Origin: Cephalotus follicularis
Taxonomy: Eukaryota > Streptophyta > Magnoliopsida > Oxalidales > Cephalotaceae
Direction of reading: 5' to 3'
Assembly: GCA_001972305.1 (NCBI GenBank)
Contig: BDDD01005056.1
Span: 46,337-110,336 of the forward strand
DNA length: 64,000 nt
Made by a program: the position numbers and the translations under genes. Each line of letters begins with the position of its first letter. Positions within the stretch are counted from its first letter, which is position 1. The notes beneath the pieces were generated by a model, which was not told where the DNA came from, searched no databases, and saw nothing but the letters and a program-made list of their open reading frames with translations. Positions 1-64,000 of this stretch are shown here, in pieces.

Positions 1-1861
1 GCCAAGTATGACAAGGGATTATAGTACACGTGGACTTAGAAAATCTAGGGTTAATGAGGTGAGTAATAAATTATGGGAAAATTAATTAGATTAATTTTTC
101 CATCTGGATAATATTAGATATTATTCCGAGAGCATTTAAATGGTTTGGGATCATTTAGAATGGTTAAACCGGACCCAAGGGGTATTTCGGTAATTTATGA
201 ACACCTCTCGTTTTAACCAAGATTTTAAAGGGTCCCTGCCTTATAATGATTAGATATTTAATATGTTGGACATATTAAGTCTTGGTGTCAAATATCAGTT
301 ATGTGGATTTTGTATTTTGTGGAAATACATATGTCTGATCTTACTTAACCAATATTGGAAGGGTAGATGAGAACACTAAAATTGTTAGACTCTTAATGCT
401 TCACTGGCCAGACAAAGGCGTCGATGTCTTTTAGAAAGACGTCGATGCCTAATTCTTTTAAAGACATCGATGTCTTTTAGAAAGCATCGATGTTTTTAGT
501 GCCACATTGCATGGGCGTCGATGTCCTTTGGAAGGCGTCGACGTCTTTGAGCAGAACGTGCAACCTGTGCACGAGCTCACTTCATGGGCACGATTTCTCT
601 CTCATATCCAGCTTCCACCTCTTGTTCTTGCACGTTTAAGAAACATGGGAATCATGGCTTCGGACTCCCAGGGAGTGAAGGCCATGATCGTAATTGAATG
701 GGAGATTGGGAGAGAGAAAAGGAGGCTAGTAATAGGCATTTTCTGCAGAAAATGAACTAAGTGAAAAAGAGGAAAAAGTTTGAGTTTTTCTGGGCAAGAG
801 AGCTCGAATTCTTCTCTGCAGTGTGTTCTCTTCATCTGTGATACACCAAGCAAGAGCTTATCTAGGGTGGATTGATCATTGACTTCATTGGTCAATATCA
901 ATATACCTTTTCTAAGCTAAGTAAGAGAGAGAGAGTTCATACATTATATCATTGCTGGTTGGATTGCTCAATGTTCCTGAGACTTGGAGAACATCAAAGG
1001 GGAATCTACTCAAGCTTGTAGCGGCAAAGAAAGAAGGAACCTTCACCCGCTGGTATAATTTTTGGTCCTTCTTCCTTTTGCATTGTTTGTGTGTCACCAT
1101 TGTTTGTAATGGTGACACCAATTCAATTTTGTAGATGTTGTGGTCATCCATGTGGTATGTGGACGTGCCATAATGGACTAGTTATGTTTTAATTGGGTGT
1201 TATTCCGCTGCCATGATTGTATGTTTTGTTTTGTTCTACACCCTATATGCCTAAGTCTATTTATGGCATTGGATTCGGTTTTGTCCGATTCCATGGACTT
1301 TCTTTTCTTTATAAAACACACATTCAAAGTTTAAAAAAAGTAACTGTCTTCCCATCAAAGACTTAGTGGGATAACAGGATCCCGTAAAAAAACTGTCATT
1401 ATCCTTTAATTTAGCTAATTCAAATAAAAGGGTTTATCTATTGTGTGTTTAACCAACTACATTATTTAATCACATATATAGTAGGATAACACACAAAAAT
1501 ATATTATCACTAACGTGTATATTTATTATCTCATTAAAAACTTTAGAATCACAATTCTTAATGAGTAACCTTATTATCATAATTGATTTCCCATCATCCC
1601 GTTACTTTATCTTTATTAAATGTAAGCCGAAATTAAGAAAAACTCTAACATAATCCTCAAATGATAGAAATTTGTACTTAGAGAATCCCAAATGCTTGAT
1701 ACAATGACTAAAAATGAGGATTTGATATGACAAGCTAAGATATGCGTGATCAACCCTATCTAAGAAATTCGCAGATTGGATAGACTCCAAAGATGGTCAT
1801 ATTTACAAGGGCAAATTCAAGGCCTCTCCAAAATATTCTATTCACACAAGTGATCAAAAGT
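1..1861. other. Unassigned repeat-like sequence at window edge
   Basis: No convincing gene is present; the open frames are short and without recognisable domains. The left part carries a cluster of RTCGAY palindromes (415-548) like those inside LTRs elsewhere in the window, so this is probably the remainder of an LTR-type element that begins outside the window. The right part (about 1300-1860) is AT-rich with no feature I can name. Confidence 0.4.
415..548. repeat. RTCGAY palindrome array, copy 1
   Basis: Five or more copies of GCGTCGATGTC-like words separated by about 10-20 bases (for example AGACGTCGATGCC and AGACATCGATGTC). The palindromic core with near-symmetric flanks matches the arrays at 3842, 5262, 8318, 19905, 23308, 33600, 42060 and 63735. 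Confidence 0.7.
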
Positions 1862-2480
1862 TGTGACCCTCGAGTTCGAAGGGCAAGCATGAGACATCGG
1901 TCTCTGTCCTATTCAGTCTCTTAGTCCTATGGTTAAGTACTAGTTAAGTCTATCAATTGCGAAAATAAAATAAAAAACTTCAATACAAGTTATACAGTAA
2001 TCCATTCCTTATACTTAATATAATAATTGTCGTGCATAGAAACATACAATCTAATTGCAATACAATTGTGGCTGTTTGAATATAAAAGCAGTAATCCAAA
2101 AAGACAATTCTCAGTCCAAGCTACTACAACAAATCGACTCACTGTCCACCACTCCCTACCTCTCTTTCTGTACACAATATCAATGCCCCATCTGGAAGGA
2201 TGGGTTAGCCAAATAGTCAAGTACAATATTCTCCACGCACAGTGGAATGAATAATATACAATAATAATGCATGTCATAGTATATGCATGAATGCGAGTTG
2301 TGGTCAACTATTCATATACAATCGTCTCCACGGGAGGAATCCTCCAAAAAAGGTATGTTTAGAACATCTAGCCATCCATGAATCATCCCATGGATAACGC
2401 AGACTAGATGGTGATCTAACTGTCTTGGATCAGCCAAAAGAGTATGCAATTAGATTTGACTTTGTTGTTCTGGATCAATC

Positions 2481-4908
2481 TGTAACACCCCGCGTCCGCA
2501 GGGCAGACACGTGTCATTACTCTCAATCCAATACACAATACAATGGTCGGGACTAGCAATATAAAAATGCGAAAAAACGTAAAACTTTACAATACATATC
2601 ATTGTGCGGAAGATACAGTACAACAATCCATCCATACGGTACAATACAATACAAAATCCTTTACAATACCAATCTTTTACAATATATTTATCAAACTCTT
2701 CAAAGCAATATTACAATGAACTCTGTCAGATCCAGACGATCCCCTCGGTCGACGGAATCTTCAATCCTTCGGTCCGCTGCTACCTGCTGCCCTACCTATG
2801 CTGCACACAAAATGTACAACACAGCCCCACCCCGAAGGATGGGGTTAGCCACACTGGCTAAGCAGAAACCTCATGCAGTGTGTAGGCATGTACAATGTGC
2901 AATATCGGTGACAATCCATGCAATATCAATGTGCGGTGTACAATATCAATGCATGACATGGCAAATGCATGCGTACAGTTAGAGATCAGACTACCCGTAT
3001 GACAATGGCCCATAACAAAGTATACGTATAGGATCTATAACAATCAATCAATGGCAGACACTCAGTGGTGGTGTATAAAACACCCAATCAATCAATCATA
3101 TCCTATAGAGCATGCGTCCTCCGGTCAATACAATGTCAGTCAATGGTAATGATCAATCCCACGGAAGGTAGTCCTTCAAAAAGGGTGGGAGATCTATCTA
3201 TTGTTCTTAGACTGATCAGGTCTGGAACTCGTAGATCTTCCAACATATGGCTGGGTCAATATAGTCTCGATGAGCTACAACCGAGGGAGCTACTATATCG
3301 TCAGGGAGCTATGGCCCTCAAGGGAGTATCAATCGTCAATCAATACACTACTACTCGTCAGCAGGTCAATACAATACAATGAATGAAACGGTCGACGGAA
3401 TAGGTGGACAGAGTCAACAACCTAACATGCCGACATGAATCATAAGGTCGCTCTATAGGATCCATACAATACAATCAATCTGTCGGTACAATGTCGATAA
3501 GTGGTGATGTCTAATGGAGAAATGGGAATGTGAGTTCAACGTTCCGAACTTAGACTCATGACACTTATGACTCAAGCAATCAATCAATCAATCAATAGCT
3601 AATAGACGGTGACAATCAAATAACGAGATAGGAAAGAACATCTATCCAGCCAAAGAAAGTCATTGGGTCATCGCCTATGACTCAAGTTGTCACTTTATCA
3701 ATTTATCAATTCAATCTTTGAAAACCATGTAAAAATGTGTTTCAAACGCTTGAATACCTCAAGCGAGGCTCCGGTCAAGCGGCAATGTGAAAAGGAGTTG
3801 AAAACTAGCTTTAAACAGCTAAAAGTTTCATTCAGCCTGATAGGCGTCGATGTCCTTGGCCAAAGATATCGATGCGTATCAGGGTATTCCTTTAAACGGT
3901 GGAAGGACATCGACGTCTTTGAAAGACATCGATGTCTTTCTCTATTGTATAAAACTCTGTCCAAAGACGTCGATGTCCTTGGACAAAGACGTCGACACAA
4001 TTCAATAAAAATAGTCTGGGAATGCGTATCGATGTTCAGCATCGATGTCTTCTCTGAGGAGAAGACATCCCAAGGAAAAGACGTCGATGTCTTTCAAATA
4101 CATCGATGTCTTTGCTGCGGAATCAAGGATGTTGTACTCTAAATCGAAAGACATTGATGTCCATGGGCTGGGGATCGATGTCTTTGCTGGGCAGGGTCGA
4201 TTTTATGCAGAAAATACAGCCAATCTCAAGTCAAAATCCAATTTAAAGCCATTCTTTGAAAACTAAGGGTTAAAATCAATCATTTAAGGTTAGTAAAACT
4301 TGTTACAACCTTCCAATTTCAGATTAAATCCTTCTAGATCAGTTAGATCAAAGAAATCAATAAAAACCCTAGTTTTTCAATTCTATACAATACAATCACT
4401 CAATCAATCAATTCAATCATTCAATCAATCAAGCAGTAGGCAATTCAAGTAAAAAAGTCCTACCTATAACCGAAGCTTCAAAATTTGAGCTTCCAATCAA
4501 TCAATTGACTAAAATCACCCACGAATCAGCTGCTATCTCACTCAAACGGCAACCCATAACTTGCAATCTCTATCCTTGATGATGGAGATATAGTCCAGGC
4601 TGCTAGGGAGGAAGATGGAGGCTGCTCAGCTAGAGAGAGAGAGAGAGAGAGGGAGAAGGATAGAGAGAGGGAGAAGCATGTGAATATGAGAGAATGAGAG
4701 TAAATAATTGACTTATATAGTCAATTCTGCCGATTCTCGGAAACTCAGCCCAAAATCCCGACTATACATGCATATAATCAATACGATAACAATAGGTATA
4801 GGAATACCTCAATTCAATACAATACAATACAGTTCAATACAATTCAGTACAGTACAATACGATACAATATATGCATGAAAAGTACAAAAGGGAATTCGGG
4901 TCGTTACA
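2481..4908 (-). mobile_element. Solo LTR nested in the older LTR
   Basis: The unit reads TGTAACACCCCGCG at 2481 to GGGTCGTTACA at 4908. It is flanked by caatc (2476-2480) and taatc (4909-4913), a 5-bp target duplication with one mismatch. It has no coding capacity, and I see no second LTR within it. It contains many CAATC and CAATAC runs, the stem-loop at 2845-2861 and a palindrome array at 3842-4190. Its layout matches the surrounding LTR, so it is probably a younger relative that inserted into an old copy. Orientation is inferred from the stem-loop and the following C/T box. Confidence 0.75.
3842..4190. repeat. RTCGAY palindrome array, copy 2
   Basis: About a dozen copies of the form AAAGACRTCGAYGTCTTT, some perfect (GACATCGATGTC), in about 350 bp. 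Spacers are irregular and not themselves repetitive, so this is neither a simple microsatellite nor a uniform tandem repeat. Confidence 0.8.
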
Positions 4909-5261
4909 TAATCCAAGGAATACGTAGTTAAGCCTCATAGCTGTCTAAGGATTAGCCCAACAGACTACTTAGGTAGGTATAACTGTCTAAGGATCAACCC
5001 AATAGACTACTCACCTATATATTGGAATTAACCAGTCAGTCAATCAGTCGTTCGATACAATCAATCAATCAATCAATTTTGGTTTTGTTAAATCGGTAAG
5101 CGAAAATCGCCCCATGATCAATTCGTGTTAAAAACAATGTTAAAACAATGGCACGAGCCTTGGAAAGGTCCCATGATATGTCCAGTAAAAAATGTCTAGT
5201 TAAAACCATAGAATAAATCCACTTGAAGAAAATAGGGGAAAGGCATTGATCCACTTGAAAA

Positions 5262-5595
5262 TGCGTCGATGTCTTCCCTTGGACTTTCAAGTCCAGTGCA
5301 TTCAGATAGGAATGTGTCGATGCCTTTCTTGAAAAGCATCAACGTAATTTTGTCTTTATGTCTTAGTGGTCTCTGCCAAAGAGCATTGATGCTTTCAGGT
5401 TGAAAGCATCAACGCTTTCATCAATTACATCGATGCTTAAATGAAAAGCATCAATGTTTGTCATCAACTACATCGACATTTAAAGGAAAAGCGTAGATGC
5501 TTTTAGGCATGGGCCTTACAGAAAACGAATGAATGGCATTGATTCACATGCAGAGCCATTGATGTCATTTCCTTGAATAAGCGTCTCATCGATGC
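5262..5595. repeat. RTCGAY palindrome array, copy 3
   Basis: About ten copies of the GCRTCGAYGC type. In the core stretch near 5385-5500 successive palindromes lie roughly 22-26 bp centre to centre, for example GCATTGATGC, GCATCAACGC and CATCGATGC. The outer half-site is mostly GC...GC, unlike the GAC...GTC type that dominates the nested LTR. Confidence 0.75.
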
Positions 5596-6407
5596 AATTT
5601 TTTTTGGGCGAGAGTAAAACACACACTGCCTCAATGCAATTTTTCTCCACTTTTGAACTTAAACTCAATTTCAGTCATTTCCATTGTAGAGTCTTGTTAT
5701 GAAAAGCTTTAGGGAAGTTCATAAACACCATATGAACACATTAAAACCAATTTTGATTCATGGAATCATTAAAATCCCGTTTTAGGTCTAAAATCCTCAA
5801 TTCCAACCCAAAATCAATTTTATTACTAATTCAATCAATCCAAAACAATTTATAACTTAATCAATCAGTTTAGACACTGTATAAAGCAGTAAATCACTTA
5901 TCCATAGTGCATTTTAGGTAGAGAAAAGCTACCAATAAGTTTTGAAGCTTTAGATTGAAGGAAGAATAAAAAAAATAAGAGAAAGAACTCAAGCTCTTTG
6001 AATCCAACAAGCTTCAATTGGTTTTCAATCAATGAAGGATCAGTTTGCAAGCAAGAAAAATTAACGGATCCCCATTCCCTTTGATCCCAAAGCTTGGGTA
6101 GTAGAGGAGAGTTGGAGAAGAAGAGAGTTTTGTGTGTTTGTGAGAGTGGTGTGAGAGTAACGGGTGAGGGAGAGATATTTATTATGAGGTAAGGGTAATG
6201 ATTCAGTGGATCTCAGTGTATTGTAGGGTATATGTTCCTACTCCATGTCCAGTTAAAACGGTAAACAAACACGTAAATATGCATACGAGTATAAAATACT
6301 TCAATCTGCTAAATCAGTAAATAAGCAATCATGCATAATATTAGTACAGTAGACAAATGTGAATGCTAAAAATATAGTAAATGGACTCAATGGATCCGGG
6401 TCTGACA

Positions 6408-6921
6408 TCCTTCCCTCCTTAAAAGAATTTATCACAATATTCACTTTTCGGTAAACAATTGAGGATGTTTCTCCCTCATATCTTCCTCTCATTCCCAATT
6501 ACACTAATCTATAACATGGTACTGCTATAGATACTTAACCAAATAATAGCCGGTCCAACTAGTGAATTGGTCTGAGTCGGTCATCGGATAGTTTGAGCAG
6601 TCTACACGATCTCGACCCAGTCAAACTGGTTGATTGGCCGATTGTTTCAGTCTCAGACAATAGACCGGTGAACTGGGCCAAGTCACATCGAACTGGTTGT
6701 ACCAAAGTTTTTTTATATTTAAATTAATTTATTGGTTGACTCATTGACCAATCGGCCAGTTAGATCATTGACCCATTATATGAGTCTTAATGGATTTAGT
6801 CACCGGTCCGTTTCTAAGAGCAACTTGATACTCCCGGACCCAGCCCGCTGGGATCCGTCGCGCCCACTACGAGGCCAAGACTCCCATTAGAGACTCACCT
6901 CGTAGGTTAAGCAAAATAGAG
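6408..6921. other. Gypsy internal remnant and CCGGT-rich repeat
   Basis: 6408-6425 is the purine-rich tract of the minus-strand Gypsy fossil, followed by a short internal remnant without a readable protein. About 6545-6800 is rich in inverted CCGGT, ACTGG and CCAGT words (such as GGTCCAACTAG and GACCAATCGG), typical of a dispersed palindromic plant repeat. 6833-6921 is GC-richer and unassigned. Confidence 0.4.
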
Positions 6922-8317
6922 TGTAACGCCCCGAATTTCATAAATAATTATTATGAAATTGGTGCGTGTACGATTGTAATAAAATCGATAGAGGCCCGGA
7001 GTAATAAAAAGGTATTACGCATTTAAGTAGTAATCGTGTTAGCTAAGACGGCTAATAAAGCCTATTTTTAATGCGCGACAATAAAGCCCAAATGCTCACA
7101 ATATTATTGCGATTATTTTGGTGGTTGTTTGGATAATTTATGTCGCGATTCGCGGAAAAATCGGGACCTAGACCTTAGTATTTTGCCAGAAAATACTAAG
7201 GGAGAAGCAAAATGATAAAGGGAGAGGGGGAGAGACACAGGCACATCACACGCCCGTGCAAAAGAAAGAGAGCGGGCGCACCAAGCGCCCGTGCCAGAGA
7301 TAGAGAGAGAGAGATTGGGAGAGAGTGCGGTAGAGAGATCGGGAGATGACGTCGGAGCCAGCTACCGGACCGGGAGAGCACGCCAGTCAACCCAGGCACG
7401 CCAATGGACGGTAACTCCTCCTTCCCCCTTCTCTTTTCTCTTCTTTTTCTTCTTCTCCCCGCCACTGTCGCGCCTCCTCCCGGCGTTTCCCGATGCCGTT
7501 AGCGTAGCGGGTGGGGTGGGTTTTGGTGTAGAGGGCTAGCTCTTGCCATTTTGACCATCAGTGAGGCATGATTCGGCCGGAATCAGTGGACCGAGTCGAC
7601 TCAGGGAGTCGACTCACGGCTGCCTGAGACGGCGCGTTTGGCGCCGAGTCTTGGCAAGTCACGAGGATGGGTGTGTATAACTAGTGAATGTGTGGCGTTT
7701 TTGGGTGGTGGTCGGACCTGTGGAGGTCCGGCGAGTTGACTCAGTGAGTCGCAACTCACTGCCGGTCGTGGCGCGGTGTTCGGCGCCGATTCCCGATGAG
7801 TCTTGACAGTTTGGAGTAGACCGTTCAATGTGGAACCCGTTGATGGGTGTTTCACCGCCTGGTTGTGTCGGTCGGAATCCGGCCGGCGTTTCAGCGACGG
7901 AAATGTTTTGTGTGTCGAACATAACGGAAATGTGTTGTATGTGCAGTGTGTAAGCGGCAATTGGATTTGGCAGTGAGGAACTGATCAATTGGCAAGAACT
8001 GGCTTCAGTTCAACGGTTATCGAAAAGGTTCAGCAATTGAACGTGCAACTCGACTGTACGGTTGTTACTGCTGTAACAGGTAGGGGAAGCTATACATGCA
8101 AGTTTGAGTTCAATAATATTGTATTGCCATTGATGACATGCATGGTTTGCGGATTGTGAATTGTGTGATTCTGTTAGGGTTGCTATGAATAGTTAACCTG
8201 TAATGCATATTGCGTTTTACAATGATTGCGGATTGAATGGCATGTGTTTTATGATTGTGTCCTATTGGTTTTGAGACGTGTTGAAGGAACCGTGTTTTGG
8301 TTCGCTTAACTGTTGAC

Positions 8318-8605
8318 GCTTAGGAAAGAAGCGTCGATGCTGTGGATTGTTATACGGAGAATGAGTCCTGATTCGCGATAAACGTCGACGCTTATAGAAA
8401 ACGTCGACGCCACGATTCGTTGTGTGTGAGAATGGACATGTGTGCCGTTGATGCCTGAGGTTCCTACCTCAGAGCATCGACGCCAAAGGGATGAGATGTT
8501 GACGCGTAAAGTTTCTGGTTGAAAGCATTTACTCTAAAAGTTAAGCGGCGACGCTTAAGTGACTGGGTTGGACATTAACACCTATATGGTGTATGTTGAC
8601 GCGAA
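8318..8605. repeat. RTCGAY palindrome array, copy 4
   Basis: Copies such as GAAGCGTCGATGC, AACGTCGACGC and GCATCGACGCC, with degenerate neighbours, inside the 6922-9059 LTR. Spacing is irregular at about 20-45 bp. Confidence 0.7.
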
Positions 8606-8674
8606 TAGAGCCCGTTTGCATTATTGAGCATATGTTCACATTGCATACAATTGTTGATTGAGCTATCACCTGTT

Positions 8675-8699
8675 TTCTAAAATGTTCTTCATTTTAGAA
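8675..8699 (+). other. Perfect 10-bp stem-loop inside LTR
   Basis: TTCTAAAATG, loop TTCTT, CATTTTAGAA. It resembles the shared LTR stem-loops in its 5-nt loop, but it lacks the C/T box that follows them, so it may be unrelated. Confidence 0.5.
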
Positions 8700-9059
8700 G
8701 TGTATAAATGGTTTATTAAATCATTGTTATATGGAAAAGTATGTTTTCGGAAAGGATTGTTATATATATTTTGACAAATATATATGTTGCAAGTATTTAT
8801 ATCTATAAATTACTTGAAGTGTTTGAAGGGAAATGTATTGTTGCAAGTACGCTCCGTTTGTGGGCAGTTAACTTTGATGATGTTTTGTTGTAGCATGTAG
8901 TATGGGATGCATGTTACGTTTTATTTCGGCTTATATTTGAATGCTTCTGCAAGTTGTTAATGGATATGGAAAGTTTTAAATTTATGGTAAATTGCATAAG
9001 CCGGATTTATATGTTGATTGCCACCACTTTTATTGTTGTTATGGGAACGGGGTGTGACA

Positions 9060-11900
9060 CAGAGTTTCAGAAATAGAAGAATTTTCTTCAAAAACTTGAA
9101 AATAATTCTAACTCTTAAAATTTTACTAAAATCGGGTATGTAGTATCCGTTTATCGGATTATGCCCCCTGTAAAGAAAAACAAAATTCATATGATGAGTT
9201 TAGCGCTCAACAGACCACACACCCGTAGGAGGAAAATCCATTATATATATATATATATATATATCAAAACAATACTGCCATTCGTCTGCAGATCTCAATA
9301 ACAGAATAAACAGAATAGGTTTGGGCCCCGTCCATATCATCAAAAATAGAAAACAACTTATCGGATATATATATCAAAACAATAGTACCATTCGTGGGTA
9401 GATCTCAATAACAAAATAAACCGAATAGGTTTGGGCCCCACCAATCTCATCAAAAATAGAAAACAACTTATCGGATTCAGTTCGTCAACAGAATAAAGTT
9501 TTAAATATAACTAATACATGAAAAAAAAAATCCAACTCATTAAGCATTAAAGCGATAAAGGAAAAGTGAGTTTAGTTTTTACCATACAGATATCTTTAAC
9601 TGGAATTAAAGAAAACAATTGAAAATAAATGTATGTATAATGGATGCATTATGCAATCAATGTAATGCAGACAATAGAATAGGTAAGTATGCCCTCGTGA
9701 TCTCACCTCAACAGACTGATTGATTTTGACTGACAGAACTCAGCAGACTAACCTATCATAACTGAAAATGGAGGGGGTTAGTCCACAGGACTGGTGAGAT
9801 GGAACAAAAGACTTAGACTGAGTTTTGCTCGCAATAAATTGTATTTTTGTAGAAATGTTATAACTAGAAGTATAAAACAATTTAAACAGAATTTCAGAAA
9901 CAGAATGAAAATCTGAAATCTGATTTATAAAACAGATTATAAAATAGAAATTAACAGAATCAGCAGATTATCAGATCATTTTCTTAAAACAGCCTTAAAT
10001 CATCAGAAACTCAGATATATATAGTATTTAACAGAGTTTAAAACAAAATAAATATATAACAATGCAATGGGTCTACAAGCTAAGATTGACGCATGGGCCC
10101 CGTCGGGCCAAACGTCCAACATAAAATAGTGGCAATGACATCGTAGTGTCAAAGCATTAGCAAAAAGTGCCTCTCATGGGAAACAAATGAATAACAAATA
10201 CAATATCGAGATCTCCAGTGCATCAACACATATTTAAAACAGATTTCAAAGATACAGAAATCACCAATGTCTCAAAACATATTTAAAACAAATTTAAACA
10301 GATACAGAAATCATTTTCTTATCTAATACATATATAACTGAAAATAGCGTCATACTATGACTATCTTCATGCGAGAGTTTGAAAAACATTAAAAGAATGT
10401 ATCAAACATTAAAATTTAAATAGATTTCAGAAATGAACTATATCCAAGTTCATTCAGACACAGAAATGAATAAGTGAACGCATTTAAAATTTTAAGTCAT
10501 TTAAAAGAATTTCATAATAAAAAAGGTTAAAAAAAAGTGTTCCACCCACTGAACAGACGAACAAGTCCTACAACTGGTCGCCTCCATGGTTGACCTAAAT
10601 CGCAAGATCCTCTATCACTAGACAGACAGATAGACAACAGACTATCAGAACTCAAACACATACTATGTCGCATAATGTTTTATGCAATGAAATACGTGCA
10701 GATATCAGAAAACTATAACCGACCTATACTGTCAACAGTAGCAGAAGTCTGATTATTAAAAACCTCGTTTAAACATTCAATTAAGCACACTTCCAAAAAT
10801 CATTAAAGCAAGTCCAAGTGGTTGTCCAGGTTATCCAATTTTGAATTGATTAAACAATTCAAGTTCTTAATATCATAGAAACAGATAGAGAAATACAGAA
10901 TTCAACGGAAAGCAAAATTAACGAAACAGAGTTCAGAGTTTACCGGAAAAAGACAAAACAGAGTACAGAGCTAGAATCACGGAGCGGAACTGGAATGAAA
11001 TACCTCAACTCGGAAAACGAAGCCAGAGTGTTGACGCTCTGCCAGAGGCTGCCGACGCGTGGGCTCACGCACTACCACTGATCGAAGCGTGACAGCAATG
11101 CGGTGTGGTTGTTCGGTAACGGGGAAGGTCAGATCTGGTGTGTCGGAGGTCGGGGATCATTGATCTGAGGTGCGTTGGTCACGGCACCGCCGCATCTGGC
11201 CGAAACGAAGGCGTTTGACCGGGGCTGTCTTCACTGGTGACTTGCACTGTCGGCGTTGTCATGGGTCGGGGCTGGTTGTGTTTGACTCGCTTTGACACGA
11301 GGATGCTGGATATGGGCTTACCTTGCCGTGATTGTAGTCAGAGACGGAGATTCGATGCACGACAGAGGTGGGGAGAGACAAATGGTTTGTCGTGTGCACG
11401 GGGGCCGTTCGCAGACACCGGGGTGAGGTCTGGCGCGCTCGAGAGACAGCAGCAGTCTCTCCGGTGTCATTTCGGCACTAACGCTGATAGCAGAGGCAGA
11501 AAAGAGAGAAAGAGAACGGGAGAGAATGAGAGAGAAAATGAGAGATGAGGGAGAGAGAAAAAAATCTCTTTGGCATTTCATTTTTATACACAACCAAAAC
11601 AGACTAGGTTTTTGTTCAGAATTTAATCGATATGAACAGAAATTTGGATGTTTAGGACATATCACTTGGCTTATTTTTCAAATTTAGCAACAACTTTCGT
11701 AAAACATCATTTAATTTTAAACAAGGAAAGATTTATTTGTTATGCAGATAAAATATCAAAATAAAATCACACTGATAAAAATTTGTTAATATCATGATGC
11801 ATATGTCACAAATGTCAGAAAAGCAGACTAATCGTTAGACAAATAGACAGAACACCGTGTAGGCTCACAGATACAAACTACTGGGATACAAATGTCGCAA
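9060..11900 (-). mobile_element. Old minus-strand LTR remnant
   Basis: The stretch at 9065-9180 closely matches sequence near one end of the LTRs at 15203 and 30103 (shared words ATTCTAACTCTTAAA, ATGTAGTATC and ATGCCCCCT). The stem-loop is present at 9780-9792, followed in the minus sense by the C/T box. 11000-11560 is the GC/GA-rich zone seen near the other end in relatives. Terminal bases were not found: the left end is obscured by the 6922-9059 insertion, and the right end near 11900 is an estimate. It is a fossil without coding parts. Confidence 0.55.
9254..9475. repeat. Two-copy tandem duplication, about 110 bp
   Basis: The stretch beginning ATATATCAAAACAATA and ending GAAAACAACTTATCGGA occurs twice head to tail (about 9254-9363 and 9364-9475) with roughly ten differences. 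A TA microsatellite precedes it (9241-9265), so slippage or unequal exchange is the likely origin. Confidence 0.8.
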
Positions 11901-15202: not shown

Positions 15203-18200
15203 TGTCACACCCGTTCCCGATAACAACTGATAACCTACCGAGAACGGATGTGACTATCACGTAACAAGTCTCCTTTCGGAAACTCCACGTGATAGCTAAA
15301 AACCGTTTCGAAAGCCGTATAAAGCTATGTAATCAAATTTGAAAAATCATAAAGTTAAAGTTTCCAAAACTTTGAAAAAAAATTCTAACTCTTAAATTTT
15401 TACGAAAATCGGGCATGTAGTATCTGTTTATCGGACTATGCCCCCTTTAAAGAAAAACACAGTTTATATACACACTCCCAAAGGAGGAATCAACAGTTTT
15501 AAATAGGCTCAGCCCTCAGAAAACCACAATTTAAACAAGTAAACATGGGTTGGGCTCAGCCTCAACCATTTCAACAAGCAATAAAAGTAAATCTATAGGG
15601 TTCGGCCCTTTTTAAAAGCAAAACCATAAAATGAAATCATTAATATAAAAATGAGTAAATGCGTAATTTAATTGTTGATGTAGTATGCTATGCATGTGTT
15701 AAAATCCTGGTAGCATGCGTTGCCTCCGTGGTCAATCATCAACAGCAACAAACTAGCACTCACTTACCATCTTGCCTTTATCTGGAAGGGAAAGAAAAGA
15801 GAGGGGGTTAGTCCAAATGACTAAGTGAGTAGAAACAATAAATACATCTCCCATAACTATATACTGAATAAACGGAGAAATAATATAAGCTCAAAGTAGA
15901 AAACAATGTAAATCTACAGCAAGATGAAATCAAGATCCAAAAAGATAGTCAAAATCAACAGAAAATATCAAGATCCATAACAAATCATGATCCACGAAGG
16001 ATATCGAGACCATAAAGGGATATCGAGGCTCATAAATACAAACGAAATCCACGAATATAAACAAGATACACAAGTGTAAACAAAAATCCGAGAAAGGAAT
16101 CTCGATACTCAACGAATAGCTCCACAATATAAATATAAGTCAGGAATGAAAACAAGATCCACAAGCGATATCAAGATCCCTTAACGAAATTCACAAATGA
16201 AGTTGAATATATGAAAGGAAACTAAATACTTAGCAAATGGGCTCCATAAAAGAAACCCTTGAACTTAACAACAAAGTCCACTTAACGAATATCAAAGTCA
16301 AGACAGAAATCAAATACATGAGAGTCAACAACAAATCCAAGTATCTGAATATCAAACTCAAAGATACGATCATAAATCTAATATCAAACATAAAAAATGT
16401 AATATGAGCCCAAAGAATCATAAACAACAAATATAAGGGGATGCTGGTACCAATCCTGTCACTGTCTCATATCCCCGCCAAATCACATGGCGTCATAACA
16501 TAACCGCTGCCGCAATAATATAGGCCAATAGGCTACAGGATGTGATCATCATCCATCATACACCGGTGCAGAGTGTCTATGGTAAGCATAACATCCAAAC
16601 CTCGCACGAGGGGCCGACATATACCGCACGGACCCTAGCCCTCGCTGAGCAACCCGTACGCACACTCAACGTCATCCGAGGGACCCGCGTGTAATATATA
16701 TCAACAACCAAACACAGTCCAATAGGAGGGTAATGGAGCAGCTCTGCTGCACTCACACTCAGCATACCATCGTAGACAATAGTATGCCGCAGATCCAGGT
16801 ATGGAACCCGGGGGCAGTTTCCACATAACACCCCATCATAGACCAATGGGCCTGCTAAGTAGAGTTGAGCGTCGAACATATACCACTCCTTGGACCGGTA
16901 ATACATATCCATCATCCCGGTACCCAGCATCAGAATATAAATAGTATAACCATATAACAAGTCACAAAGTCACAAGTGTGAGAAGGTGACCAAGTCACCC
17001 AGAGCATCGAACATATAACCGCTTGGAATCACATCACAATCATGAATACGTTAACAGAAGACAACCGGGATACAAATCCCAACCAAGATCACATATCACA
17101 AGAAATCGGGCACATATGAAAACAACATGACTCTCAAATAAAGAATTGGTCAACGGCATCAACAACAAAGCTCAAGTATAAGAATGCGGAAACCAATCAA
17201 ACTTAACAAATCCGGCCCTCAATAGCCATTTCATAATAGAACCACAAAAAAAAGCACATTCCCGGCAACAAAACTCAAACATGACAATACGAATCTAGAA
17301 TGAATATAACCGTAGCAACAAAAACGATATATGTCCGCAGGAGCCAATGCGGATACGACATCGCGAAGTGAAATGAATATATGACTACAAGGTCTCATAT
17401 CAATGTGAACATTCAATCAGAATACCAACACAGGGCTCAAAGCAAACGATTAAGGAATTGATTTCAATTCGACTATCAACAAGTCATATCAATATGAACA
17501 TTCAATCGAAATACCGATAATGGATTCCAAGAACAATTATGGAATCAACATATCACAAATCATATCGTATGATAAAATCAAGCAACGAAGGCTATCAACA
17601 AGTATAGAAATCAACTCCAAATCAGATTATCAACAAATCAAATGATAATTAAGAATCGTAATAAAGCACACAACAATCATCAACGAATTTCAAAATCAAA
17701 TAAGATAAAGGAAGGGGATGTTCTACTCACAATATCAAAGCCGATACTACCACGGACTAACCCCGTTAAGCTTTGAATCAACTATCGGGTTCTCGCCATC
17801 GTTTCGAAACTCTATCAACCGTCACACTGCATTAACAACACATATCCGTTACTTTATACACATATGCAGTTAACACTGTGAGTCACCGGAGCTTTGGCCA
17901 ATTTCCGGTCAACCTGCCAAAGTTCCGACGACACCCAAAACAACCCCTAAAACAACTGATCAACTCACATTATTGATCGAAACTCACTGTGACTCGCCCG
18001 GAATTAGGCAGCCACCGCCGACAGTGAGTTGACTCACTGAGTCAGCTCGCCGGTCATCCAACAAATATAGCCACTTCACAAATAAGTCACAAAACAACCA
18101 GGCCTACACATCTCCGCCCGAAACTCGGTCAGACTTGGTGGCTGTCGCCGCGCCGGAGCTCTGGTCGAGTCGCCATTGCACTGGTAATGCCACCCCTAGC

Positions 18201-18792
18201 CTCCACAGCGTCCCGGATACTCATTGGTGGCCGAGACTCGCCGGGAATCGGCGCCAAACGTGGCGTCACAGGCGGTAGGGTGACTGGGTTGACTCAGCGC
18301 CTAGAATCCGGTCGATTCCGGCCAAATGATGCCACAGCCACTGTCGAAATGGGTATAGGTGATCCCCACGACGAAGACCAGCCCCACCCGCGACGGTATC
18401 GGTGGCGGAGGAGCAACGGCAGTGGCCGTTTGGCGCGGAAGAGAAAAAAAAATAAGAGAGAAGAAAGAGAAAGGAGGAAGAGAAGGATACCTAGCAGTGG
18501 TGGTGACGTCGTCCGCCGTCTTCCCCGGCCTCCGGTGCCTCTCCCGACGTTTCTCTCCCGGTCTTTGCATCTCTCTCTCTCGTGTTCACTCTCTCTGTCT
18601 CATCTCTCTCACACGGGCGCTATGCCCGTTTCTTTTAATTGGTTTGGTGCGTCTAGAACGACTCCCTTTTTTTTTCTTTTTTTTAATAACAATTATAATA
18701 ATATATTATTATAATAACGATAATAACAATCACAATAATACTATACTTGAGTCATACACATCGACCTCGTAAAAGTGACTCGAGGTGTCACA
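15203..18792 (-). mobile_element. Solo LTR, 3.6 kb, inside Copia pol
   Basis: The ends are TGTCACACCCG (15203) and AGGTGTCACA (18792). A perfect 5-bp target duplication, catca, lies at 15198-15202 and 18793-18797, and the Copia protein reading is continuous across the empty site. No coding domain or second LTR is visible, so I read it as a solo LTR; a non-autonomous element with very diverged LTRs is the alternative. It shares layout and much sequence with 30103-33539. The stem-loop lies at 15808-15824, a GTTGACTCA palindrome at 18026-18048 and a GGGC hairpin at 18612-18629. The minus orientation is inferred from relatives. Confidence 0.85.
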
Positions 18793-19429: not shown

Positions 19430-20530
19430 ATTGTTTTGTTTTACTCAAATTTAGCTTTAGCCACTACCTTATACACCAAAGTTATGTCTTTTATACGATT
19501 AGATGTTATATGCTCTGCTCTGCTCTTATCTTAGTATATTTATTTAGTTTTAATTTAGTACTGAATAAACTACAAGGGGGGTGTAAATGTTTGTTTTTGT
19601 AACTAAACCTCTCACAAGGTTGGATTTTACAATATAGAATTGCTCAAAATAATGAGAACAAAAAAATGGCTTAGAAAGCAAAAATGAGACTTTTGATTGA
19701 GCTCTTTGATTTCAATGCTTTGAGTGTGATTTTCTTGAATGATGTTTGTATGCTTGATTCACTTGTGTTGTTCTCACACTTGTACTTCAAAACATTCGTC
19801 CATTTATAGCTTAATGCCTCAAAGATCCGTTGGGATTAGTTTAGGATTAATTCCTTAATGGAATGTCCACTGAAATCTGTCAGAAAATTGCTGCAGACGA
19901 TCAAAGCGTCGACAGACCTCTCCCAAGCGTCGATGGTCATGTGACCGTTGGGGCTCCCAAGTTTGAATTCTCTGCTTGAAGCGCAGACGTTCCATTGATT
20001 ATGTCGACCGCCAGATAAAGCGTCGACCGCCAGCCTTGAGCGTCGTCGCTTAGGCACATTTTAATTGCCATTTACTCTCTGTACCAGACAGCAGACGCTT
20101 TGCACTAAGCGCATGCGTTTTGCGCCTTAAAGCGCAGACGCTTGCTTTTGAGCGTCGACGCTTGGAGTGTTATTTCCAATTCTCCAAGTGCTTCACCGGT
20201 AGGCGCTTTGTTCTTGTCTCGACCGCCAGCTAAAGCGCAGATGCTTTAATTTCAAGCGTCGGCGGTCTGGGTAGTTTCTGCATAATTTCTGCTGATATGT
20301 TTATCTTTTATCTTTCTTGCACAAAAAGAAACTTTGTCAAATACAAATATGTTATCATCAAAACATAGGATTGAGACATAAATGTCAACAAGTACATATG
20401 CTGGACAGATTTATATCTTTTATTCAGGTTCAGTTGATAAGGAGTAAGGTAATTATTGTCTAGTCCTAGTCCATAGGAAGAGTGGGGTGGTGTACAAAAC
20501 CCTGAAATAACATTAATACAAGATAATGTG
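19430..20530 (+). mobile_element. LTR-type fragment between Copia integrase and RT
   Basis: The Copia reading stops near 19420 and resumes near 20540. In between, ACAAGGGGG followed by TGTAAATG (19572-19589) looks like a purine tract and an LTR start at 19582. The LTR-like sequence contains a dense palindrome array (19905-20270). No right terminus or target duplication could be fixed. The superfamily is unknown, and the limits are approximate. Confidence 0.5.
19905..20270. repeat. RTCGAY palindrome array, copy 5
   Basis: At least ten units such as AAAGCGTCGACAG, GAGCGTCGACGCTTGG and AAGCGCAGACGCTT. Both perfect and diverged halves of the GCGTCGACGC type occur. Confidence 0.75.
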
Positions 20531-23307: not shown

Positions 23308-23560
23308 GCGCCGGCAGTTCCACTTCAAGCGTCGACGCTTTGGTAGTAACGGTCGACGCTTAGACCCCTCCTAACGGCGCTTTAAACCAGTGCAATGGCA
23401 AATTTGAGATATGCCTCTAACAGACGACGCTTGGACTAAAGCGGCGACGCTTTGAAGTAAAGCGCCAGCGCTTCAAGTTTAACGGACGACGCTTTGGAGA
23501 TCAAGTATTGAGGTTGACCTGGAGGAGACTTAAAGCGGCGACACTTTAAGGAAAGAGTTG
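23308..23560. repeat. RTCGAY palindrome array, copy 6
   Basis: Contains the perfect palindrome AAGCGTCGACGCTT near 23327 and about seven related units (GGTCGACGCTTAG, AAAGCGGCGACGCTTT and AAAGCGCCAGCGCTT). It lies upstream of the element's TATA box, that is, in its presumed U3. Confidence 0.8.
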
Positions 23561-29811: not shown

Positions 29812-30048
29812 TGTTGTAAAACTAGCTTCAGAAATCTCTAATAATCTAATAGCAAAGTTTAATCAAGCAAACACAAGCAAAACACTAAGGATAAATCGAC
29901 ACAAGATTTACGTGGTTCGATCAATGTGATCTACGTCCACGGACAGAGGTGATATGGATTTTACTATGTGAATTCGGATTACAATGAGTCTTTATGCTCT
30001 CTAGGTTGCTCTCTTTATTTGTCACTCCTTTTTACAGCTGCCCCCCTT

Positions 30049-30085
<37 letters not shown>

Positions 30086-30102
30086 TTATGTTACACAAAA
30101 CC

Positions 30103-33539: not shown

Positions 33540-33599
33540 AAACCCTATTCAATCAAATAAGGAAAGAAAACACAAGAAATAACAATTTTCTCCGTCAAA

Positions 33600-35738: not shown

Positions 35739-35783
35739 AGCAGACTCATCGAATGTCAGATCTCTGCTAATGAGAAACTTTGG

Positions 35784-37061: not shown

Positions 37062-37096
37062 TACACCTTCATTAGCTTCAACTGTATTCCCTTTAG

Positions 37097-41744: not shown

Positions 41745-42294
41745 TGTTGTAAAACTAGCTTCATAAATCTCTAACAACCTAATACAAAGTTTAATAAAGC
41801 AAACACAAGCAAAACACTAAGGATAAATCGACACAATATTTAAGTGGTTCGATCAATATGATCTACGTCCACGGGCATAGGTGATATGGATTTTACTATG
41901 TGAATTCATATTACAATGAGTCTCTATGCTATCTAGGTTACTCTCTCTATTTGTCACTCCTTTTTACAGCCGCCCCCCTTTGATATATATATCAGTTAGG
42001 TTACACAAAACCCTACTCAATCAAATAAGGAAAGAAAACACAAGAAATAACAATTTTCTCCGTCGAAAGTGTCGACGGTTTTACTCAAACTGTCGATGCT
42101 TTAGCGCATAGCGTCGACGGTTTAACGCTGATTGTCAACGCTTTATTCCAGCATGTATTTGTCCTTCTCTACACTTCTAAAGCATCGACTATTTTCTCCT
42201 TCATCTTCAAAGCGGCGGCGGTTTCAACTAAAGAGCAACGGTTTCGATCAAAGCGTCGGCGCTTTGAGCAGAAATTTCAAAGCATAATTCAACA
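41745..42294 (-). repeat. 5' LTR of the Tork-like Copia, uninterrupted
   Basis: A 550-bp LTR with TG...CA ends. It carries the empty target site (42008-42012, aaacc) that is filled in the sister LTR, and a palindrome array (42060-42275). Confidence 0.92.
42060..42275. repeat. RTCGAY palindrome array, copy 8
   Basis: Same array as 33600-33805. Between the sister arrays some core palindromes differ (for example GCGTCGACTT against GCATCGACTA), so it evolves as ordinary LTR sequence after insertion. Confidence 0.8.
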
Positions 42295-48409: not shown

Positions 48410-49736
48410 CCCAGTGGATGGCTGGGATGGAAGCTTCTAATCCAGGCAGCATTGTAGTATGGCACACAACAGAGTCAGGCAACCCAGGAGTACAAGTTTT
48501 CCAACGGGTTTTTTGGGCATTCGGTGCTGCCATTGAGGCTTTCAAATATTGTAGACCAGTTATATGCGTCGATGGAACCCATCTATATGGGAAGTGCAAA
48601 GGAAAATTGCTAATTGTTGTTGGTATTGATGGGAATGGACAGTTACTCCCATTGGCTTTTGCTATATGGAAGGTGAATCAAATGACACTTGGGCGTGGTT
48701 TATGGCTAACTTATGACAGAGGGTTACCAGCAGACATTGTTTGACTGTCATTTCTGATAGGCATATTGGGATATTAAATGCCATGCGAGATGAACATTTG
48801 GGATGGCAAGAACCATATGCATATCATCGATTCTGCGTGAGACACTTGGCTAGTAATTTTAACACGACGTTCAAGAACAAGGCGTTGAAAACCATGGTCT
48901 ATTCAATGGTTGTAGCAACTTAACAAAGACAATTCGATAGCCAATGAGAGAAGATTGATGATGTTGAAGAAGGGCGGGTTGCCCGGTGGCTTAACAATAT
49001 TTCTCGTGACAAATGGACTTTGCTATATGATCAAGGAAGAAGATGGGGAGACATGACGACAAATATGGTTGAGATTTTTAATGGTGTCTTGAAGGGTGCT
49101 CGCGGTCTGCCTATTACAGCATTAGTGCAGCTAAGCTTCTACGGGTCAAATAGTTATTTTGTTATCAAACGACAGGATAGTCAGGCCCTTATGGCATCAG
49201 GAGCTGGATTCACTCCAACGATAGATGCAAAACTTCATGGATTGCGCCAGCTTTCCAGTAGTTATGAGACTGTGATGTTCTATGACAAACCTGGTGTTTT
49301 TGAAGTCTGTCATAGGACAAACCGCTATCGAGGTCATTCCAATACGAGAGAGTCACATGTGGTTGATTTAGGCGAAAGATCATGTACTTGTAACGAGTGG
49401 AGGATCTATCACTATCCGTGTTTGCACGTTCTTACTGTTTGTAGTTTGCATAATATTGACCCTAACGGTTTTATGGCCAAACATTATTCGATTCAAAATT
49501 ATGTGAACACATGGGCTCCTACTTTTCACCTAGTACCTGATAGAACCACTTGGCTAGCGTACGATGGGTCGATTCTTGTTCCGGATCTGACATTGAGGAG
49601 AAACAAGAAAGGCAGACCTCGATCTACCCATTTTCACGATGAGATGGATTCTAGGGAGGGTGTTCGGACATGACAGACATGTGGTCTTTGTCACAATTTA
49701 GGACACAATCGGAGGTCGTGTCCGAATAGGAATCAA
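48410..49736 (+). pseudogene. MULE transposase, catalytic and SWIM part
   Basis: Reads CRPVICVDGTHLYGKCKGKL, the first catalytic Asp block of the MULE DDE domain, then VVGIDGNGQLLPLAFA. After a frame change near 48690-48745 comes TVISDRHIGILNAM (second Asp) and HRFCVRHLASNF, then a stop at 48920-48922. From 49020 the C-terminal part reads GDMTTNMVEIFNGVLKGARG and a SWIM zinc finger CTCNEWRIYHYPCLH (49384-49428). After an in-frame stop at 49671-49673 a CCHC knuckle reads CGLCHNLGHNRRSCPN. The domain order is that of plant MuDR transposases. It is interrupted upstream by the solo LTR. Confidence 0.88.
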
Positions 49737-61084: not shown

Positions 61085-63570
61085 GCGACAAGATCATTCA
61101 TGGTAAAGGAAGATATTGAGAGCCTCATCAAATGGGGCCATCTAACTTAACATGTCGACAAAAAGGACCTTAGGACCTCATTCAACGAGAAGCGTAAAAG
61201 CCCAGAAAGAAGAATCCTGTCTCGAAAGTGAGAGGTAAACAACCAGAAGGTGAGGTGGTAGATACGATCCAGGTCATTGTTGGGGGGCTAGCGGCATGTG
61301 GGGAAATAACCTCCTCGCGAAGAAAGGACGCAAGGCAAGTCATACCACTTGAGAAACCCTGAAAGAAAGCAAAGGCGAATGTCACAATCTCATTCCCAAA
61401 TGCTGACTTAGAAGGCATTAGAATACCTCACGGGACACCCTGGTGGTGACATGAAGTCTCAACTTCAATGTCTAGTGCACCCTCATCGATAAGGGAGTTC
61501 AGCCAACATCCTATACTATGATGCCTACCAGAAGATAAAGCTACCTCCCAAACAGCTTAAGTCTCTACAATCTCAACTGGTCGGCTTCACCGGTAGCACC
61601 GTTACCCAAAATGCGTGATAAGCTTACTGATCATGGTAGGCATTGCACCTTGCCATGTCACGATCTTTGTCAATTTCTGGTAGTGTGGAAGCTGAGAACC
61701 TGTAACGCAATATTTGGTCGACCAGCACTAGTCGTCTTGAAGGCCATTGTTTCCATGCCTTACATCCAGATGAAGTTCCCAACCCCCGGTAGGATAGGCA
61801 TTGTGAAAGGGAATCAAGAGATGGCTAGGGAATGCTACTTAACCTCCCTAAAGCCCCCTAAAAACAACTTGCCAATGGAAGCCCTGAGGTTAGGAAAGGA
61901 GTCGAACTAGCGAGTTGAGCGAGTGGAGGAGCTAGAGGAAATTAGTTTTGGCTCAGACGGATCACCTCAAGTACTAAGAATTGGTGCTAAGTTGGGACCG
62001 GATGAAAGTACGAAGATAGTCAAATTCTTGGAACAAAACCAAGATGTATTTGCATGGGAAACATCGATGTCCTTGGAATTAACCTAAGCATCATATGCCA
62101 TAAGCTTGGCATCAACCCCGAACGCCGACCAGTAAGGAAAAAGAAGAGGTAATTCATCGGGCAGAGGAAAAAAGCAATACCCATGGAAGTAGGAAAACTC
62201 CTCAAGTCTGGGCACATTTGAGAGGTCAACAATACGAAGTGGCCAGCAAATGCCATACTAGTCAAGAAGGCAAGTGAAAAGTGATGGATCTGCATCGATT
62301 TCACTGACCTCAACAAAGCTTGCCCAAAGGACAACCACTCATTCCCAAAATTTGACCAGTTAGTAGACGCCACCTTGGGCCATGAACTACTCAGCTTCAT
62401 GGATGCCTTCTCCGGATACAATAAGATCTCAATGTAAGAACCCAACAAAGACAAAACATCATTCATAATTGACCAAGGGATTTACTGCTACCAGGTCATG
62501 CCTTTCGAACTCAATAATGCCGTGGAAACTTACCAGAGGTTGGTTAATAAGATATTCACTCCATAGGTTGGGAGAAACATCAAGGTGTATGTCAACGACA
62601 TTCTACTAAAGAGTGCGGTGACTAGATATCATGTCACATACCTCCAAGAGACATTTGGAGTCCTAAGGGAGTACAAAATGAAGATGATTTCAGAGAAGAG
62701 TGCCTTTGGTGTCACCTTAGGGAAATTCCTCGATTTCATGGTTACTCACTGAGGAATAGAGTTAAAACCTGAGAAAATCAAGGTTGTTCTCGAAATGACA
62801 CTACCAAAGAACACCAAGGAGGTCCAAAGGCTTAGCGGCGGATTAGAAGCCCTCAATGATTTCATAGCAAATTCAATAGAGAAATGCCTACCTTTCTTCA
62901 AAACACTGAAAAACGGTAAGAATTTTGAGTGGACGGACGAGTGCCCGAAGGCATTCAAAGAGCTCAAGGCATACCTCGTCGCTCCACCCCTGATAACCAA
63001 ACCATCCTAAGGTGAGGAACTACAACTCTACTTTTCCACATCGAAAACACAGCTAGCTCGACATTGATAAGAGAAATGGAGAAAAACCAAAGCTCGGTCT
63101 ACTATGTCAGAAAGGTGCTCAAGGAACACGAGGTTAGGTTTCCGCCAATCCAAAAGTTAACCTATGCCCTCGTAATCTCAATAAGGAAGCTCTACCTGTA
63201 TTTCAAGGACATACCATCAACATCATGATCAATCAAACCTTTAGGCAAGTGCTACAAAAGCCTGAGATATCAGGAAGATTAGTCAAGTAGTCCATGGAGT
63301 TAGGCGAGTTTTACATACGGTTCAAGCTTCGACAGCCACTAAAGTTTCATGTCATAGCGAACTTCATCATCAAATGCACCCATGTGCTAGAACCACAAGA
63401 ACATATTATGCAAGGGGCCTTAGAATAAGACGGCTGGACGCTGCATGTTGAGGGATCATCTTGCAGACAAGGATTATGTGCATGCTTGATGCTCACCATC
63501 ACAGATGGTTGGATGTTAGAGTATGCCTTGAGGTTCTCTTTCCCCATAATTAACTATGTCACATAATACG
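61085..63570 (+). pseudogene. Gypsy protease, RT and RNase H parts (Tat/Ogre-like)
   Basis: Protease-like GSSANILYYDAYQKIKLPP lies near 61490-61560. The RT region reads WRKCIDFTDLNKACPKDN, then FMDAFSGYNKI, YCYQVMPFELNNAVETYQRL and KEVQRLSGGLEALNDFI. RNase H-like sequence reaches 63570, where an LTR interrupts it. It is strongly decayed. Confidence 0.75.
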
Positions 63571-64000
63571 TGTGATGCCCGAAATTTTCATTCAATGTAT
63601 TGTTGTAATTCTCAATGTAATTTTATCATGAATTAATGAGAAACGATGGATTTTCCAACTTATGATATTAAACTTTGAGTAAGGAATGTTAAGAGTGATG
63701 TATGGAATTGAAAATGTGAAAAATGGCCTAAGGAGTCGACGCCCAAGAGCAAAGCATCTACGCCAAGGAAGCAAATGTCGCTCGTAAGACTCATACCTGC
63801 AAAGTGTCGACACCAAGTGATAGCGTCAACACCAATGAGTAAACAGAGTTAAGCATCGACGCCATGAGGAAAGCGTCGCCGGTTAAAGACGAACATCATA
63901 TAGATTTAAACATCGCAGAAAACGTGTTGAGGGGCCAGGTGTTGACCACTGTTCGGGTGCCAGTAAGTGGCGTGTTAGACACATTGCCATGATTCCTGGC
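63571..64000 (+). mobile_element. Start of an LTR-type element, runs off the window
   Basis: TGTGATGCCCGAAATTTTC begins exactly where the Gypsy RNase H reading stops, and a palindrome array follows. The right end lies outside the window, so a target duplication cannot be tested. Confidence 0.6.
63735..63875. repeat. RTCGAY palindrome array, copy 9
   Basis: Units such as GAGTCGACGCCC, AAAGCATCTACGCC, AAGCATCGACGCC and AAAGCGTCGCCGG, in the LTR that starts at 63571. Confidence 0.7.

Follow-up and report, generated by a model that had tools for sequence, protein, structure and literature searches.

A 64,000-base stretch of the Cephalotus follicularis genome (contig BDDD01005056.1; hereafter the window) carries arrays of short palindromes with the core RTCGAY, several of them in long terminal repeats (LTRs) of Copia and Gypsy retrotransposons (Table 1). 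The 85 RTCGAY sites of the window are strongly clustered. Counting as a cluster at least three sites at gaps of no more than 75 bp gives seven clusters, against 0-3 (mean 0.65) in 20 Markov-5 simulations. A symmetric 18-bp weight matrix was built from 181 clustered sites, all of them outside the window. It scores 61 hits in the window, where ten Markov-1 simulations average 9.2, and eight clusters of at least three hits, where the same ten yield none. The arrays are real, and both kinds of simulation rule out chance as their origin. Eight of the nine places listed by the initial annotation are recovered with the matrix; the ninth, at 19905, has just 2+1 matrix hits yet qualifies by the plain RTCGAY count, and outside these nine places the window contains no cluster by either measure. 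The LTRs at 15203, 30103, 37757 and 45917, which had been described as free of arrays, indeed show no cluster in the matrix scan. The figure of 5-12 palindromes per array proved too high for most of them, the range being 2-12 RTCGAY sites, with 4-12 hits in the matrix clusters.

The assignment of all nine arrays to LTRs holds in part. It is borne out for the solo LTR at 19562-20390, which is flanked by a target duplication, for the LTR pair of a Tork-like element (41745-42294 and 29812-33826), and for the sequence at 3842, which aligns with the 3' LTR region of a Ty3/gypsy element, L021 (pieces summing to about 880 bp, best 83%). LTR-like starts alone speak for it at 23069 and 63571, and the sequences at 415, 5262 and 8318 are candidate LTRs. 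L-numbered sequences are other stretches of the same genome (1.577 Gb, 9,746 contigs), from which a systematic sample of 20 stretches with 174,407 bases without N was taken; two of these, L007 and L009, are mostly N.

Table 1. Palindrome arrays and associated elements in the window and in other stretches of the genome
Feature	Positions	Strand	Matrix cluster	RTCGAY cluster (sites)	Details
Array	414-548	.	414-548	420-542 (6)	6 palindromes, AAAGRC-RTCGAY-GYCTTT type; candidate LTR
Array	3840-4201	-	3840-4185	3846-4201 (12)	12 palindromes; strand from alignment to Ty3/gypsy L021
Array	5259-5593	.	5259-5569		10 matrix hits (5259-5569) and one RTCGAY at 5588; candidate LTR
Array	8327-8558	.	8327-8558	8333-8481 (4)	5 matrix hits; candidate LTR
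Solo LTR, Ty1/copia, Sirevirus-like	19562-20390	-		19908-20027 (4)	829 bp; target duplication AGTAC on both flanks
Array	23325-23548	+	23325-23548		4 matrix hits (2 RTCGAY, 2 GGCGAC); LTR-like sequence from 23069
3' LTR, Tork-like Copia	29812-33826	-	33597-33798	33603-33720 (3)	Split by insertion 30103-33188; array 33597-33798
Coding stretches, same Tork-like element	33904-37235	-			RVT_2 33904-34998; Pol_BBD; gag_pre-integrs and zinc knuckle 36270-37235
5' LTR, same Tork-like element	41745-42294	-	42065-42266	42071-42189 (4)	550 bp; array 42065-42266
Array	63729-63886	+	63729-63886	63735-63860 (3)	4 matrix hits, about 160-300 bp past LTR-like start TGTGATGCCCGAAA at 63571
Ty3/gypsy, L012	3043-5103				LTR; RVT_1, gag
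Ty3/gypsy, L025					LTR pair; gag
Ty3/gypsy, L026					LTR pair, 99%; RNase H, integrase
Ty3/gypsy, L021					Aligns with window 3842
Ty1/copia, Sirevirus-like, L027	1-693 / 8846-9539				LTR similarity
Ty1/copia, Sirevirus-like, L014
Solo LTR, L008	4581-4824				244 bp; three sites; CCTAT on both flanks

The palindromic unit

The repeated unit is an about 18-bp palindrome, AAARRC-RTCGAY-GYYTTT, as derived from 138 clustered sites that lack A-T flanks; in 167 isolated sites there is almost no signal beyond the hexamer. A second class, CAGTCGACTG, is represented by 14 clustered sites and is also seen in the arrays of L005, L012 and L026. Genome-wide, where reversed words counted alike served as controls and where all counts include copies of the same families and are hence non-independent, AAAGACRTCGAYGTCTTT occurs 51,413 times against 187 for its reversed word, and GCATCGATGC 8,855 times against 48, the latter being a weak control as it contains two CpG instead of one. 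Compared with all 32 classes of such hexamers, RTCGAY shows the largest excess of neighbour pairs over expectation in the sample (85 versus 11.2, or 12.1 without N) and the second largest in the window (28 versus 5.42; RGCGCY, 7 versus 0.92). RTCGAY is not unique in forming clusters: in the sample its 20 clusters are exceeded by those of RAATTY (33), YATATR (30) and RTATAY (25), AT-rich classes that have about 1.5-2.2 times as many sites and include a satellite in L022. The array at 5259-5593 departs from the consensus in that about half of its matrix hits (up to six of ten) lack the central TCGA and read TTGA, TCAA or TAGA instead, in forms that include CATTGATG and CATCAACG; we read this array as older or decayed.

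The 36 clustered sites of the window are symmetric at 2.97 of six outer positions as compared to 1.52 after letter shuffling, a value reached in none of 500 shuffles, and the 49 isolated sites at 1.78 versus 1.52 (reached in 33 of 500). Half-site symmetry is thus greater than in shuffled sequence, a check to which the initial annotation had submitted its proposal of selection on symmetry. What stands of that proposal is the symmetry of the consensus. When right arms were swapped between the sites of an array, covariation of the arms within sites was not seen in the window (2.97 versus 3.03 swapped) or in the sample (3.26 versus 3.20), and in L025-L027 the arms matched slightly better within sites than swapped (3.74 versus 3.51, 0 of 500). 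Compensatory pairing of the arms is unsupported in window and sample, and selection on symmetry is therefore to be understood as the keeping of two copies of one half-site rather than of paired arms.

Of 180 sites with C-G outer flanks 47 read GTCGAC, and of 44 with A-T flanks 31 do, so that the R/Y ambiguity tracks CpG context, which we read as decay of the outer but not of the central CpG. The central RTCGAY is kept in 74 of 101 strong-armed units, a share biased upward by the choice of arrays through that very core. Arrays outside the window have a CpG observed/expected ratio of 1.50 as compared to 0.61 in flanks 200-800 bp away, an excess that partly follows from the definition of a cluster. 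Among 185 sites in 22 oriented stretches (from the window, L005, L007, L008, L010, L012, L014, L021, L022 and L025-L027), the sense strand reads ATCGAC 57 times and GTCGAT 20 times, as if decay to CA at the left outer CpG had been commoner than decay to TG at the right one. Some elements enter this count with both of their LTRs, and several orientations were deduced from neighbouring genes or LTR-like starts; that of L008 is uncertain, but its sites are all GTCGAC.

Spacing of the boxes

The initial annotation called the palindromes irregularly spaced. Spacing instead peaks at two helical turns: neighbours are mostly 19-22 bp apart, and of the nearest gaps of 12-115 bp, 87 of 182 round to two turns. 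The array at 414-548 has successive gaps of 21, 25, 20, 31 and 20 bp. Distances between sites peak at 19-22, 29-32, 40-43, 48-52 and 69-73 bp, and the best Fourier period is 10.2 bp both in the window (105 pairs) and, separately, in the sample (271 pairs), much of this signal being due to the mode at 20-22 bp. Phasing is weaker among gaps of 25-115 bp. Taken together (n=92), these gaps give R=0.34 at 10.3 bp, which none of 5000 jittered sets reaches; in the window 15 of 19 lie within 2 bp of a multiple of 10.3 bp (R reached by 3 of 5000 sets), and in the sample, where phasing is weaker, 30 of 52 (126 of 5000). Phasing beyond two turns is partial and not strict, and phasing at each multiple of 10 bp is accordingly upheld in part only.

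Genome-wide, GTCGAC pairs number 166,339 at 20-22 bp, 5,964 at 25-27 bp and 7,931 at 30-32 bp (controls 1,742, 241 and 146), and for CATCGATG the corresponding pair counts are 2,914, 79 and 449 (controls 0, 6 and 5). As a control for phasing, RAATTY also scores high, with n*R^2 of 23.6 versus 27.9 for RTCGAY; we attribute its score to a satellite in L022 that is still included in the count. This satellite is a tandem repeat (3260-9998, period about 163 bp) adjoining gypsy-like LTR arrays and is possibly centromeric.

Occurrence in Copia and Gypsy LTRs

The sample contains 20 clusters of at least three sites in nine of its 20 stretches, as opposed to 0-1 in Markov-1 and 0-4 in Markov-5 simulations (ten runs each). 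By extrapolation we estimate the genome total to be of the order of 10^5 arrays, of which one LTR may hold several. Ten of the 20 sample clusters lie in, or align over at least 140 bp (summed) to, a structurally defined LTR; of the remainder three are LTR-like or assigned by position, one lies in a linker, three show weak alignments (66-105 bp) and three none. The same palindromes are found in LTRs or LTR regions of the Ty3/gypsy elements L012, L025, L026 and L021, assigned by RVT_1, RT_RNaseH, Integrase_H2C2 or Retrotrans_gag/Ty3_capsid domains, and in Ty1/copia LTRs, namely of L027 and of the element with the 5' LTR at 41745-42294. In the latter, RVT_2 and gag_pre-integrs lie between the LTRs, and "Tork" is a label carried over from the initial annotation.

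Sharing of the arrays by this Copia pair and by Gypsy LTRs that do not otherwise align, as had been proposed, is supported by matrix clusters and by alignments that are of box size only. The LTRs of L025 (gypsy), L027 (copia) and L021/window 3842 (gypsy) align with one another (E 1e-3) only in pieces of 19-52 bp that span one to three boxes in either orientation. Descent of all arrays from one recently copied segment, which would have undone the proposal, is thereby ruled out. L012 and L026 have one 81-bp array piece in common, an array segment of L025 is repeated in tandem over 85 bp, and the L027 LTR is self-similar when shifted by about 71 bp. In L008 the solo LTR is absent from a paralogous copy at 8440-8640, which thus represents the empty site.

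In the LTR pairs the boxes diverge to the same degree as the rest: 3.1 versus 3.1%, 4.3 versus 4.1%, 0 versus 1.1% and 9.7 versus 7.8%, one of the four pairs showing no change over 72 box columns. Constraint on the boxes after insertion was therefore seen in none of the four pairs, as would be expected of selection that works on elements while they propagate and not on copies already resident.

Two further observations concern the window. The insertion that splits the Tork-like 3' LTR into two parts (29812-30060 and 33536-33826) is a copy of 15203-18477. An open reading frame (ORF) at 48948-49670 encodes a SWIM zinc-finger and looks like a fragment of a MULE transposase or of a protein of FAR1 type.

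Position in the LTR and relation to Sireviruses

In all three Copia LTRs examined the array is followed, in the sense direction, by a TATAWAW motif at a similar distance: TATATATA 85 bp past the last array site in the Tork-like 5' LTR, CTATAAATGG 105 bp past the last site in the solo LTR at 19562-20390 (sites 19908-20159), and CTATATAAAG at 107 bp in L027. The Tork-like 5' LTR has an isolated extra RTCGAY at 41827, beyond its TATA, and is adjoined at 41731 by a sequence resembling a primer-binding site, GGTATCAGAGC. The solo LTR begins, in sense, with TGTTGACAT, as do the Sirevirus-like elements L014 and L027. The sequence from 23069 contains one TATAWAW, at 736, and the cut stretch from 63571 none.

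The initial annotation knew of no described system of this kind. Such arrays have, however, been described as the repeated motifs (RM) of Sireviruses, high-copy palindromes that cluster in an LTR's upper half, ahead of cTATAWAWg, and also in the linker preceding the env-like ORF, that form CpG islands and whose word differs by element (PMC2829016). Two of the 13 consensus words given there contain RTCGAY, CGGTCGACCG (Vitis) and ACAATCGATTGT (Tnd-1). The arrays reported here resemble RM in being clustered LTR palindromes, in the Copia LTRs examined with a downstream TATA, in their CpG density and in the presence of linker arrays. They differ in that the box is centred on TCGA with GAC/GC and AT arms, in that it occurs also in Tork-like Copia and Gypsy elements, whereas the available text of PMC2829016 describes RM as specific to Sireviruses and lacking in classic retrotransposons, and in their two-turn spacing, for which that text contains no corresponding analysis.

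The Sirevirus-like elements of Cephalotus have the known RM system with a different word. At least eight clustered boxes, as a member of the RM system should have, are present in the 5' LTR of L027 (20 RTCGAY at LTR positions 126-727); L014 has three sites in an LTR fragment and nine in the linker. Linker arrays lie at 5080-5350 in L014, upstream of an ORF at 4923-3532 (PF20167, E 1e-21), and at 3501-3750 in L027, upstream of an ORF at 1809-1063 (PF20167, 27.5 bits, below the cut-off of 45). Judged from its position between pol and the 3' LTR, the PF20167 ORF would be the env-like gene; its Pfam name, Transposase_32, may mislead (minus strand, 3532-4923 in L014 and 1063-1809 in L027). Alignment between the two linkers covers 323 bp (83%) next to the arrays and 46 bp of the arrays themselves. 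Another array of L027, at 2511-2663, is no linker array: it belongs to a solo LTR at 2400-3007 that is nested in the linker and matches the family of the window solo LTR at 19562-20390 (88% over 609 bp). Sireviruses are further described as having several AGGGGGAG copies as polypurine tracts, the last 10 bp before the 3' LTR (PMC2829016), and such octamers are found on the minus strand of L027 (696, 823, 885, 1603) and L014 (2918, 3179, 3234), the first of each reading AGGGGGAG-AT-TGTTGAC. In L027 only RVT_2 was found, and placement of both elements in the Sirevirus genus is putative. The CGG-CCG core, reported for all RM except that of Tnd-1 (PMC2829016), is replaced in L014 and L027 by TCGA with GAC/GC arms, and the gypsy LTRs of L012, L025, L026 and L021 fall outside the Ty1/copia elements to which RM belong. 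New in these arrays are their occurrence across Tork-like and gypsy LTRs, a word centred on TCGA, and boxes set two turns apart. Among the titles and opening parts of abstracts listed in a literature search there was no report of one palindrome common to Gypsy and Copia LTRs.

A proposed role of the arrays and its alternatives

Why would elements of both superfamilies carry the same box? We consider it somewhat more probable than the opposite that the arrays are cooperative boxes in the U3 part of the LTRs for one dimeric, probably host-encoded DNA-binding protein. Each box would be a symmetric site of about 18 bp for a putative dimeric, sequence-specific protein; boxes two helical turns apart would face the same side of the double helix, where adjacent dimers could touch and bind cooperatively; and cooperative binding upstream of the LTR promoter may promote transcription of the element. 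Two equal half-sites, two-turn spacing, U3 position and sharing fit one dimeric protein with neighbour contacts, and the occurrence of the same box in Copia and Gypsy LTRs that do not otherwise align makes one common protein more likely than several element-encoded ones. Tork-like, Sirevirus-like and Gypsy families would then have converged on one protein, probably a host factor. We take the arrays, their symmetry, spacing and sharing, and in three Copia LTRs their position before the TATA, as observed; the protein, its dimerisation, its cooperativity and a role in activation rather than repression are what we infer from them. A comparable symmetric host-factor site at work in an LTR is that of ONSEN, where a captured nTTCnnGAAn drives the element (PMC3907296); that case, as described there, concerns one family, known HSFs and an LTR without CG or CHG sites.

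Several observations weigh against this interpretation. The longer gaps of L025-L027 are not significantly phased (13 of 21; R reached by 968 of 5000 jittered sets), and TCGAYG...CRTCGA pairs are frequent not only at 40-42 bp (40,173) but also at 35-37 (7,614) and 45-47 bp (19,186; controls 431, 740 and 398, respectively). For the Tork-like LTR, sharing is seen by the matrix only, as it aligns to none of the other LTRs compared. TATAWAW is absent from the examined gypsy stretches L012 and L026 and from the L008 solo LTR, and present six times in L025 with no clear tie to the arrays; finally, the distance of the sites from the LTR start varies from about 80 to 1,500 bp.

An alternative has been proposed for maize Sireviruses: hairpins or cruciforms formed by RNA or single strands would give rise to small RNAs, be targeted by them or take part in packaging. 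The maize palindromes CACCGGACNNNGTCCGGTG show an excess of small RNAs at their clusters and recur in Helitrons (PMC10760457). Clustering in the cis-region of the LTR and recurrence of the word in another superfamily are common to both cases; the word is different, and the maize case is argued there from RNA structure and small RNAs. All 12 array pieces folded here are stabler than the mean of their dinucleotide shuffles (z -1.3 to -11.3), and nine of them fold better than every one of 200 shuffles, but any repeated palindrome would fold in this way. The slightly better match of arms within sites of L025-L027 would agree with stems; the missing covariation in window and sample, and the rarity in sense of GTCGAT, the form that would keep a G-U pair, do not, and two-turn duplex spacing is left unexplained. 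On balance the arm data fit protein half-sites better than base-paired stems, and we regard the hairpin explanation as improbable. We hold a similarly low opinion of the arrays as a platform for CG methylation or chromatin, that is, as CpG-dense islands read by methyl-CpG or CXXC-type machinery in silencing of the LTR or escape from it. The CpG ratio of the arrays, the retained central CpG and the flank-dependent share of GTCGAC, as if the outer CpG had decayed to CA/TG, speak for such a platform; the first two are, however, partly built into the definition of a cluster, and a simple CpG platform would do without two-turn spacing and without an 18-bp palindrome whose ends are AT-rich. One combination of this idea with the dimeric protein appears to us doubtful but deserves mention: the outer Y is either T or the C of a CpG, and both carry a methyl group once that C is methylated, so that the reader could tolerate or read CpG methylation. 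One such methylation-tolerant or methylation-reading dimer, forming a two-turn chain, would make Copia and Gypsy elements of unrelated descent one regulon, with arrays estimated to be of the order of 10^5.

That the boxes are a functionless by-product of amplification, multiplied by slippage or by exchange between LTRs through template switching, we consider quite improbable. The unconstrained resident copies, the box-sized pieces of up to 52 bp common to different families, the tandem repeat of L025 and the self-similarity of L027 are all in line with it, but it does not readily account for arms and cores that stay symmetric although their spacers differ, across both superfamilies and two flank classes, for two-turn spacing being held, or for a TATA at similar distance in three Copia LTRs. 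Very improbable, finally, is an anti-silencing reader encoded by the elements themselves, as VANC in VANDAL. VANC21 targets are marked by dense YAGTATTAY motifs in noncoding element DNA, and their density is important (PMC5735166); short motifs, high density, noncoding location and a protein reader for which density matters would be the common ground. That system differs in the kind of element, in its element-encoded reader and in its motif, which is not a palindrome (a term absent from the main text of PMC5735166). The elements described here carry LTR-retrotransposon genes, no search aimed at VANC having been made. Two Copia elements do have an extra ORF with PF20167, one of them below the curated cut-off, but this ORF occupies the position of the Sirevirus env-like gene, the same box is found in Gypsy and Tork-like elements, and neither PF20167 nor another extra domain was found in those Gypsy and Tork-like ORF pieces, not every ORF among them, that were searched against Pfam.

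A feature that had been ascribed to a single Copia genus only thus extends to both LTR superfamilies within one genome, and a precise geometry is added to repeated motifs of the Sirevirus type. If one host-encoded protein is indeed their reader, a single factor would act on a large share of the retrotransposons of this genome, and the question of who switches on their LTRs would become directly testable.

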